Origin: Acetobacter lambici
Lineage (GTDB): Bacteria > Pseudomonadota > Alphaproteobacteria > Acetobacterales > Acetobacteraceae
Direction of reading: 5' to 3'
DNA length: 64,000 bases
NCBI RefSeq assembly: GCF_011516885.1
Contig: NZ_WOTD01000006.1
Location: 1-64,000 of the forward strand
In this document: positions 28,730-31,843 of the stretch, piece by piece
How the letters are laid out: every line of letters begins with the position of its first letter
How positions within the stretch are numbered: position 1 is the stretch's first letter
Translations under genes and position numbers: made by a program
The notes under the pieces: generated by a model
Seen by the model: the letters and a program-made list of their open reading frames with translations, nothing else
What the model was told of the DNA's origin: nothing
Databases searched by the model: none

Positions 28730-29142
28730 AAAATGCGGTGCCATGGAGCCAAGCATGTGAACTTTAGGCCATGTTTGGCGGGCTTGCGCAACCATGCTGC
28801 CAGCGTGAAGCCTGTTTTCGTGTTCTTTTTAACACGGCTGTGCGCAGGAAAGCAGGACTGACTGCCAGTTCTGGTGCCGGGTGGTGGGCGCGGGCAGCAC
28901 GCTTATACGTCCATATCTGCCACTCTGATCGGTCCCGGTATTTTCCATATTTTCAAAAAACGGGTTCCTTCCCCCGGACGGGCATCACGGTTTTTTCGAT
29001 CATGTCTCCTGCAATATGGGCAGGCGAGGACATGTTTTATGGCCCGAAACTTGCGTCTGTTTTCCAGCAAGAACCAGCCTTGTGACTGCGCACCGGCGCG
29101 GACCGGTCGCGGGCTGGTATTTTTTATGTGCTGGAGCATCGC
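28730..29142. other. Divergent intergenic region with a sigma-54-like promoter candidate
   Basis: About 400 bases upstream of the aldehyde dehydrogenase. No gene is supported. It contains a -24/-12-like element (annotated separately) and an interrupted dyad CCTGC-AATATGG-GCAGG about 20 bp upstream of it. The rest is unremarkable. Confidence 0.5.
29040..29054 (+). promoter_or_regulatory. Candidate sigma-54 (-24/-12) promoter for the aldehyde dehydrogenase
   Basis: TGGCCCGAAACTTGC has the invariant GG and GC separated by exactly 10 bases, as in the consensus TGGCACG-N4-TTGC, with one mismatch in the upstream block. It would start transcription about 75 bp before the ATG. No enhancer-binding protein is encoded nearby, so this is a candidate only. 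Confidence 0.45.
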
Positions 29143-30645
29143 ATGAGCGTTAATCAGGAACCGCCCTTCAAGGCCCGTTATGAAAATTATATAGGCGGGC
29201 AGTGGAAAGCACCCATCCGGGGCGTTTACATGCAGAACAGCTCCCCCGTGGATGGACGCATTCTGTGTGAAGTGCCCCAGTCCAGCGCTGAGGATATTGA
29301 CCTTGCACTGGACGCTGCCCACGCGGCTTTTCCGTCATGGGCGCGTACTGCCCCGGCTGAACGGGCTTTGCTGCTGCTCAGGGCGGCGGACCGCATGGAG
29401 GCCAGTCTTGACCTCCTTGCCAGAGCGGAAACATGGGATAACGGCAAACCGATCCGTGAGACACTGACGGCGGACATTCCGCTGGCAATTGACCATTTTC
29501 GCTATTTTGCCGGGTGCCTGCGCGCGCAGGAAGGTACCTTGAGCGAAATTACAGATACGACCATTGCCTACCATTTTCATGAACCATTGGGCGTTGTCGG
29601 GCAGATTATTCCGTGGAACTTCCCTATTCTCATGGGGGCATGGAAGCTGGCTCCCGCTCTGGCGGCGGGCAACTGCGTGGTCATGAAGCCAGCCGAAACA
29701 ACGCCAGCCAGCATGCTGGTGCTGATGGAACTGATTGGTGACCTCTTTCCCCCCGGCACGCTGAACATTGTGAACGGCTTTGGGCGGGATGTGGGGGCGG
29801 CTCTGTCCAACAGTACGCGCATTGCCAAAATCGCGTTTACCGGCTCCACGCCTACCGGCAAAACAATTGCCCATGCCGCAGCGGAAAACCTGATCCCGGC
29901 CACGCTGGAGTTGGGGGGCAAGTCTCCAAACATCTTTTTTGCCGATGTGATGGAGCACGATGATGACTATCTGGACAAAGCGGTGGAAGGCTTTGCCATG
30001 TTCGCCCTCAATCAGGGGCAGATATGCTCCTGCCCAAGCCGCGCGCTGGTGCATGAATCCATTTACGACCGGTTTATCGCCCGTGCCCTGCCCCGTATTC
30101 AGGCCATACGTCAGGGGCACCCGCTTGACCCGCAAACGATGATGGGGGCGCAGAACTCCACCATGCAGCAGCAGAAAATTCTCGACTATATCGCCATTGG
30201 CAAAAGCGAGGGCGCGGAACTGCTGACAGGGGGCAACAGACCAGACCTTGGCGTGGAACTGAACAAGGGCTGTTACGTCCAGCCCACAGTGTTCCGTGGC
30301 CACAACAAAATGCGTATTTTTCAGGAGGAAATTTTTGGGCCTGTTCTGGCGGTCACAACTTTCAGAACCGAGGAGGAAGCACTGGCCATTGCCAACGATA
30401 CGCCTTTTGGCCTTGGGTCTGGCGTTTGGTCACGCAATGCAAACATCTGTTATCGCATGGGGCGTGGCCTGCAGGCGGGGCGGGTGTGGGTCAACTGCTA
30501 CCACGCCTATCCTGCCCATGCGGCTTTTGGGGGCTATAAAAAATCTGGCCTTGGGCGCGAAACCCACAAAATGGTTCTGGAGCACTACCAGCAGACCAAA
30601 AACATGCTGGTCAGCTACAGTGAGACCAAGCTCGGTCTGTTCTAG
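29143..30645 (+). CDS. NAD-dependent aldehyde dehydrogenase (acetaldehyde/AldA-ExaC type)
   Basis: About 500 residues. Motifs are [56 protein letters not shown] (catalytic Glu) and [16 protein letters not shown] (catalytic Cys). The C-terminus carries [19 protein letters not shown]. This is the ALDH group of ExaC, AcoD and AldB that oxidises acetaldehyde and other short aldehydes. ATG at 29143 with CTGGAG upstream is preferred to GTG at 29128. In an acetic acid bacterium it could back up the membrane-bound ALDH. It is followed by the CooA-like gene about 160 bp downstream. Confidence 0.92.
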
Positions 30646-30757: not shown

Positions 30758-30819
30758 AAGGAGGCAGGGCCATGTGGTATGGGATTTGCGCTATGGGTCT
30801 GCACGATGCCACCCCATAG
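30758..30819 (+). CDS. Possible 15-codon leader peptide overlapping the CooA-like start
   Basis: The strong ribosome site AAGGAGG (30758-30764) serves an ATG at 30772. That short frame reads MWYGICAMGLHDATP and stops at 30819, overlapping the first codons of the regulator gene at 30806. This suggests translational coupling. Alternatively the same site drives a longer regulator starting at ATG 30779, which is in the regulator frame. Expression is unproven. Confidence 0.4.
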
Positions 30820-31480
30820 TCCCGGCCATGCCTCCATTGTGGCATTGCTGGAACAGGAAGGAACACACCCGCTCCGTGGTGTGTTCCAGATGGTGGCGTT
30901 TGAGCGTGGGCAACTGCTGACCCACCCTGATGATGCGGATTATATATTTGTTGTAAAAACCGGCTGCCTGCGTGCGTTCCTGCTGGCGTTTGATCGGGAA
31001 CTGAGTCTGGCCTATCTCCGGCAGGGCGATATGTTCAGCACCCATACACGTCTGCAAATGCAGGCAAGCGAGCCAACCGAGCTTTTTATGGCCAGACGGA
31101 CAGCGGTGGAGCGGGTATCGGCCGCCTATCCCGCTCTCCAGTATGCCCTGATCCACGGTCTGGCAAAAGTACTTGGCCAGACCATGACCTTGCTCGAAGA
31201 CCTTGCCTTCCACCATGCCAGAGGCCGGATTGCCCGTTACATTGTGCGTAGTGCAGCACAGGCTGGCATAGACCTGCAACGTGGGCAGGTTGTGCCGCTC
31301 ACACTCGGTATGGAGGAAATGGCCGCCCTGCTGGGCACAACACGGCAGACGGTCTCGACCGAGTTCAACAGCATGATCCGCGAAGGCGCATTTGCGCGGG
31401 AGCGCCGGCGCGCCCTCCGGTTGGGGGATGTGACCTTACTCAAAAACTGGGCCAGTGGAGATGCCATAAGGGGCGGCTGA
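30806..31480 (+). CDS. cooA: CooA-like CRP/FNR-family CO-sensing heme regulator
   Basis: 224 residues from the Met of MPPHSPG, near the 222 of Rhodospirillum rubrum CooA. The effector domain has YLRQGDMFSTHTRLQMQASEP, which aligns with YLTSGDMFCMHSGCLVEATE of CooA. His80 falls on the heme ligand His77, and Ser78 replaces Cys75, the ligand used only by oxidised heme. Pro2, the other ferrous ligand in R. rubrum, is kept. The DNA-binding domain has MAALLGTTRQTVSTEFNSMI, close to the CooA recognition helix SSRQTTSTALNSL. It is followed by cowN with a matching operator. An upstream start at 30779 would add nine residues and displace Pro2. Family recognition is strong; CO binding is inferred. Confidence 0.82.
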   Translation: MPPHSPGHASIVALLEQEGTHPLRGVFQMVAFERGQLLTHPDDADYIFVVKTGCLRAFLLAFDRELSLAYLRQGDMFSTHTRLQMQASEPTELFMARRTAVERVSAAYPALQYALIHGLAKVLGQTMTLLEDLAFHHARGRIARYIVRSAAQAGIDLQRGQVVPLTLGMEEMAALLGTTRQTVSTEFNSMIREGAFARERRRALRLGDVTLLKNWASGDAIRGG

Positions 31481-31489
31481 TGCGCCTTT

Positions 31490-31505
31490 TGTCGGACATC
31501 TGACA
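31490..31505. promoter_or_regulatory. CooA-type operator upstream of cowN
   Basis: TGTCG (31490-31494), N6 GACATC, TGACA (31501-31505). This fits the CooA binding pattern TGTCR-N6-YGACA. It is centred about 70 bp before the cowN ATG. A weak -10-like GATATT lies at 31520-31525, so the site could sit near -35 to -40 as in class II activation. Confidence 0.75.
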
Positions 31506-31567
31506 GACAGGCCGCTCCTGATATTCCACACTCCCTTTCTGGCGCGGTAAAACTGAAAGAGAGAGAT

Positions 31568-31843
31568 ATGCCCGAAGGCTTTGATCGTTATGTCAGCTTC
31601 AGGAATGTTGAATGGGAAAGCAAGACAGCCGAGGTGTTCGACCTGCTGCAAACGCATTTTGAGCAAAATACCAGCCCGTTCTGGAGCTATTTTCTCAAGC
31701 AACGCGGCATTGCCCATGCTCAGGGGCTGGATGACCTGCGGGTTCTGCACAACTTCCTGCCAACCCTGAAGGACATTTTAGAAGACCTTGAGGACGCACG
31801 GACCTTGCATAAGCTGGAAGAGCTTGAGGACCGGTGCATGTAA
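31568..31843 (+). CDS. cowN: CowN, N2-fixation sustaining protein (protection from CO)
   Basis: 91 residues, the usual size for CowN. Features are FDRYVSFRNVEWESKTAEVF at the N-terminus, NTSPFWSYFLKQRGIAHAQG in the middle and LDDLRVLHNFLPTLKDILED then LHKLEELEDRCM at the end. CowN lets nitrogenase keep working when CO is present; the Gluconacetobacter diazotrophicus protein is the best studied acetic acid bacterial case. GAAAGAGAGAG precedes ATG. It lies just after the CooA-like gene and has a CooA-type operator upstream, so CO-dependent expression is likely. No nif gene is in the window. Assignment is from family memory without a search. Confidence 0.85.
   Translation: MPEGFDRYVSFRNVEWESKTAEVFDLLQTHFEQNTSPFWSYFLKQRGIAHAQGLDDLRVLHNFLPTLKDILEDLEDARTLHKLEELEDRCM

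Follow-up and report, generated by a model that had tools for sequence, protein, structure and literature searches.

A CRP-family regulator gene standing directly before cowN in an Acetobacter genome raises the question of whether the regulator senses CO and controls cowN, and of how such a signal would be combined with the nitrogen status of the cell. We analyzed the surrounding stretch of 64,000 nucleotides (the window; G000:C6:1-64000, assembly total 3.25 Mb) and compared it with related loci and genomes. Statements taken from published work refer to the available excerpts of the papers cited.

Our answer, taken as a joint reading and held at a probability of about 0.9, is that the cooA-cowN unit of diazotrophic Acetobacter acts as an AND gate of nitrogen starvation and CO. 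Nitrogen starvation would turn on cooA from 30775-30789 through an RpoN-dependent activator, probably NifA; CooA would bind heme, and CO would push out one of its axial ligands; the CO form of CooA would then bind the palindrome at 31490-31505 and recruit sigma-70 RNA polymerase to cowN in a class II arrangement; and CowN would bind nitrogenase, allowing turnover in CO. Of this scheme, the sequence data show the two genes and their family membership, the operator, the sigma-54 motif, the recurrent operator-to-minus-10 spacing, and the co-occurrence with nitrogenase (Table 1). Heme-based CO sensing, the role of NifA as activator, the transcription starts, and the action of CowN on nitrogenase are carried over from relatives and established knowledge.

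Table 1. Features of the cooA-cowN unit, in window coordinates
Feature	Position	Strand	Remarks
Predicted sigma-54 (-24/-12) cooA promoter, TGGTATGGGATTTGC	30775..30789	+	predicted transcription start ~30801
cooA, CO-sensing CRP-family regulator	30806..31480	+	224 aa, start MPPH; ORF, homology, and tree
CooA operator, TGTCGGACATCTGACA	31490..31505	+	right half CTGACA also -35-like; then GAC
Predicted cowN -10 element, CACACT	31527..31532	+	21 nt past operator; predicted transcription start ~31539
cowN, N2-fixation sustaining protein CowN	31568..31843	+	91 aa; curated family models

The regulator, its heme pocket, and CowN

The original prediction of a CRP-family regulator and a CowN gene forming a direct pair holds, with both open reading frames present and, by the ORF list, 87 bp between the cooA stop at 31480 and cowN. 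An alternative, longer cooA ATG at 30779 lies inside the predicted sigma-54 promoter, and 30806 (MPPH) is therefore the likely start codon. The regulator matched R. rubrum CooA (1ft9) with an E value of 1.3e-31, the alignment covering residues 13-219 of its 224, and C. hydrogenoformans CooA (2fmy) with 1.4e-30, compared with 4.7e-9 for NtcA, its best non-CooA match; judged by sequence, the CooAs of known structure are much closer to it than any other CRP/FNR entry, and the 1ft9 match is enough to establish its fold. The NCBIfam scan of the regulator returned no CooA model, its top matches being other CRP/FNR models far under their cut-offs (FtrB, 39.5 bits vs 211).

The tree separated three CRP/FNR paralogs of the same genome from all the CooAs, the window protein included, with a support of 99/96; these were the three of eight that could be aligned after five without a CooA-profile match had been dropped. 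Together with the 1ft9 and 2fmy matches, this puts the regulator on the side of the known CooAs, as had been proposed. The window CooA formed a group with its counterparts from four further acetic acid bacteria (100/99). Both CooAs of known structure fell outside the 15-row set of cowN-linked CooAs with a support of 93/94, which is under the starred level; that from R. rubrum joined L031 and L032 (87/88). The rows labelled own_paralogs in the tree and alignment also hold these last two, which come from other genomes (G190 and G143); they are CooA-like, with 25-26% identity, and represent distant family members not of the cowN-linked type, in which the heme-motif His is retained but the residue two positions upstream is neither Cys nor Ser.

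The assignment of the second protein to CowN was borne out by both family models, NF033689 (96.5 bits, cut-off 48) and PF20543 (72.9 bits, cut-off 27). The protein is full length, and 34 of its positions are common to it and all nine aligned relatives; a search against the PDB gave no clear solved relative (best E 0.16).

The heme pocket had been described as following the CooA pattern, which proved correct for the His and incorrect for the Cys. H80, located in GDMFSTHTR, is the equivalent of R. rubrum His77 and is kept in 15/15 cowN-linked CooAs, whereas the ferric ligand of the R. rubrum type, Cys75, is absent and replaced by Ser (S78), as in 15/15 cowN-linked CooAs, all of which carry FSTH compared with FCMH in R. 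rubrum. Gly117 of R. rubrum is Ala in the same 15 of 15 proteins. The N-terminal Pro, a candidate second heme ligand, is present as a residue (MPP from the ATG at 30806); N-terminal Pro or Ala is named as the second heme ligand in CooA in the available text of PMC6955866, which also describes the exchange of Cys75 for His77 upon reduction in R. rubrum CooA and, for C. hydrogenoformans CooA, a heme held by Ala2 and His82 with no redox switch. Because the latter protein has no such switch, the Cys switch appears dispensable, and, by the account in that paper, the Cys75 ligand is not a family-wide requirement for CooA. Given Ser at the Cys75 position and the Ala2/His82 precedent, the window CooA is expected to be without a thiolate-ligated ferric state, and, with Ala for Gly117 in addition, its heme chemistry need not follow that of R. 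rubrum.

The same two replacements in 15/15 proteins and the missing NCBIfam CooA match could instead mean that this heme protein of the CRP family responds to NO, O2, or redox and not to CO. We consider this very improbable: C. hydrogenoformans CooA does without the Cys switch (excerpts of PMC6955866), the His is retained throughout, the operator described below is the CooA consensus, and, as far as the available report on G. diazotrophicus goes, the same Ser-type CooA accompanies a CO-induced cowN there. Read as CO sensors, the Ser-type CooAs provide a natural test of whether the CO sensor of an aerobic diazotroph needs the R. rubrum redox lock.

Nitrogenase, distribution, and neighboring genes

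The genome carries nifH (C3:29340-30164) and, also on contig C3, four adjacent PF00148 genes, these matches being without internal stops, which rules out a nitrogenase-free genome and leaves no paradox in finding a CO-protection pair here. That 45 of 49 genomes of the genus are without nifH over the cut-off might suggest a vestigial pair in a bacterium no longer fixing nitrogen; with the uninterrupted nitrogenase genes and a full-length, conserved CowN, we find this scarcely credible.

Within the genus, nifH passed the cut-off in 4/49 genomes and cowN was found in 3/49, all within those four (the remaining one, G323, gave no cowN match). The nifH of G310, from the same genus, occupies the same contig position (C4:83885-84709) as that of G342, which holds the A. 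lovaniensis locus, in line with Acetobacter as the genus. The family sample of 299 genomes contained 12 with nifH and 8 with cowN, all of the latter nifH-positive; a strong CooA occurred in six, every one cowN-positive. One of these six has a weak second copy, and a further family genome has a weak CooA match (27% identity). A broader set of 26 cowN loci was found by two short peptide patterns and does not hold every cowN; cooA lies beside cowN in 14 of them and is absent from the fetched stretch in 12, and nifH is present in 25/26 of their genomes, the exception being a Hyphomicrobiales metagenome bin. The locus and genome sets are not independent lineages and overlap (L034 = G215, L041 = G258, L042 = G123, L058 = G076). 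This distribution of cowN, cooA, and nifH fits the known role of CowN.

We also considered, as a further operator, a palindrome resembling the CooA site some 506 bp upstream of nifH (G000 C3:30667-30682), common to the three cowN-bearing Acetobacter genomes and absent from the nif genome of the genus that has no cowN. It was rejected: it lies in an upstream open frame, and the differences between the relatives fall mainly at apparent third codon positions, which indicates coding conservation instead. The aldehyde dehydrogenase gene at 29128-30645 of the window, between degP and cooA, was likewise rejected as part of the unit, since both A. lovaniensis and one uncultured Acetobacter lack it at degP-cooA; the order degP, cooA, cowN, hrpB is otherwise kept, as far as each locus reaches.

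Operator, predicted promoters, and probable nitrogen control

The matching operator claimed to lie between the two genes was confirmed: TGTCGGACATCTGACA fits 10/10 letters of the CooA consensus tGTCg-N6-tGACa as quoted in PMC8047169. The pattern TGTC-N8-GACA alone occurs at chance level in the 64-kb window (1 match vs 0.72 expected), and the extended form TGTCR-N5-CTGACAGAC, with 1 match vs 0.00 expected, was defined after the relatives had been seen. The operator is convincing because of its position and its presence before cowN in 14/14 other cooA-cowN loci, as TGTC-N8-GACA exactly in 13 and with CGTC in one (L047). Its start lies 68 to 85 bp upstream of the cowN match in all 14, a distance affected in L038, L043, and L047, where the match misses the first few residues of the gene; the G. 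azotocaptans and G. johannae loci, two of the 14, have divergent cooA and cowN genes with one operator common to both. The right half, CTGACA, is followed by GAC in 15/15 (the 14 loci and the window). Among the 12 cooA-less cowN loci, exact TGTC-N8-GACA was found in none within 250 bp; looser matches occur in two of them, at -115 and -221. Genome-wide, the pattern is not enriched (26 places vs 49 for the reversed control), and we therefore make no regulon claim. Homology, operator conservation, and a published close relative together strongly support control of cowN by a CooA-type sensor through the intervening operator.

A hexamer starts 22 nt past the operator, after a 21-nt gap; its second letter is A in 13/15 loci, and, when 22 offsets were scored against the -10 consensus, this one came out highest (2.50 vs <=1.38). 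The operator would accordingly be centered near -41.5 in a predicted class II layout, with the weak CACACT as the predicted -10 element of cowN. In none of the 15 cooA-linked loci do the 90 bp preceding cowN contain a full sigma-54 motif. The minimal GG-N10-GC is present before cowN in G. diazotrophicus, overlapping the operator, in two loci (L046 and L050) upstream of the operator, and in L006, outside the 15, between the operator and cowN.

The cooA gene differs in this respect. In the window, the sigma-54 motif is at chance level by itself (2 matches vs 1.21 expected); TGGYAY-N5-TTGC lies at precisely -31 relative to the cooA start codon, both in the window and in 5/5 close relatives, and L010, not among the five, has the motif at the same spacing. 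The 10 other cooA loci examined, including the two divergent Gluconacetobacter ones, have no such motif there. A sigma-54 promoter at -31 would leave a leader of ~5 nt, and the cooA mRNA is predicted to be nearly leaderless. Since, in the excerpts of PMC8047169, CO gives no rise of cowN in G. diazotrophicus when ammonium is supplied, the conserved motif suggests that the module is probably subordinate to the nitrogen status of the cell, and the "self-contained" character attributed to it in the original prediction is not upheld.

As to the activator, the nearest TGT-N10-ACA NifA pattern before the window cooA starts at -464, inside the upstream gene, and none was present in the up to 600 bp scanned before cooA in the five relatives; the pattern is likewise missing within 400 bp of nifH in 4/4 Acetobacter genomes. 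The four Acetobacter-genus genomes (L016-L019) all have a sigma-54 motif near -81 of nifH, and 7/7 other family members examined have the TGT-N10-ACA pattern before nifH, between -149 and -262.

For G. diazotrophicus, the available text of PMC8047169 proposes a NifA site overlapping the CooA site, with cooA likely RpoN-dependent; on that view, the shared palindrome, read as TGT-N10-ACA, would let NifA itself control cowN, and CooA would add a further input. The window palindrome fits this pattern, one of 18 such matches in the window vs 11.97 expected, and the same source reports cowN 30-fold up under diazotrophy without added CO, with CO raising it further. However, every TGTC-N8-GACA contains TGT-N10-ACA by construction, and the overlap alone is therefore not proof of NifA binding; the CGTC of L047 breaks the NifA pattern and hardly the CooA one, the 90 bp before cowN hold no full sigma-54 motif in 15/15 loci, and a cascade from NifA to cooA to cowN accounts for the same expression data if the cell makes some CO. 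We regard direct action of NifA on cowN as unlikely. The missing cowN motif, together with sigma-54 at cooA in the acetic acid group, makes the NifA-to-cooA-to-cowN cascade the favored arrangement on sequence grounds; against it stand the minimal GG-N10-GC of L006 and the lack of a NifA pattern close to cooA.

The cooA-less loci suggest a second arrangement. A sigma-54 motif stands at cowN, at -47 to -50, in 9/12 of them (7 TGG, 2 CGG; 200 bp scanned), and a profile search for CooA at E 1e-25 found none in 11/12 of the genomes, the other being Rhodoplanes with a distant CooA at 4.3e-26. Two of these loci, from uncultured Acetobacteraceae (L041 and L058), have cowN without CooA, operator, or full sigma-54 motif. 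As a joint reading, held tentatively and at somewhat less than even odds, cowN may occur in two layouts. The CO-gated one would run from sigma-54 to a redox-unlocked Ser-type CooA (on a nearly leaderless mRNA here) and on to a sigma-70 class II cowN promoter not touched by NifA, the reported NifA site being a by-product of the CooA palindrome; in the CO-blind one, sigma-54 would act directly on cowN, as in Rhodopseudomonas. Among the literature matches listed, which left most subscription papers outside, no such comparison of cowN control layouts was found. It offers a testable account of the way in which nitrogen status and CO may be integrated before CowN is made, and questions the published reading of the cowN promoter.

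Comparison with known systems

The closest described counterpart is the algH-cooA-cowN cluster of G. diazotrophicus, with a CooA site 60 bp before cowN (excerpts of PMC8047169), from which the window differs in having aldehyde dehydrogenase instead of algH before cooA. Both are diazotrophs of the same family; CooA is 71-72% and CowN 77% identical, the operator lies at -78 here and -75 there from the cowN start, and the cooA sigma-54 motif is at -31 in both. Unlike the window protein, which begins MPPH, CooA of G. diazotrophicus begins MSAH (MSA, not MPP).

In Rhodobacter capsulatus, work from 2014 attributed to Hoffmann reportedly has NifA driving cooA, and CooA with CO driving cowN, with cooA-cowN said to lie beside nifHDK; here, the pair is on a different contig from nif. 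R. rubrum CooA, which starts with MPP like the window protein, shares the CRP/FNR domain layout, the His77 equivalent by alignment, and 34% identity, and differs in the Cys75 to Ser and Gly117 to Ala replacements. Its gene sits with the coo genes, and R. rubrum cowN is found beside rcoM (excerpts of PMC4257681).

According to the same excerpts, Rubrivivax gelatinosus has an adjacent cooA-cowN pair, as here; strain CBS, unlike the present case, also oxidizes CO, and control of cowN by CooA is put forward there as a suggestion. The two genes are also jointly listed among the protection genes of nitrogen fixers in the available part of PMC12903952. The pair and its switch are thus real, yet already described in close relatives and not new; the details added here, namely the Ser-type CooA, the class II spacing, the -31 sigma-54 motif, and the operator/sigma-54 split, are mildly informative.
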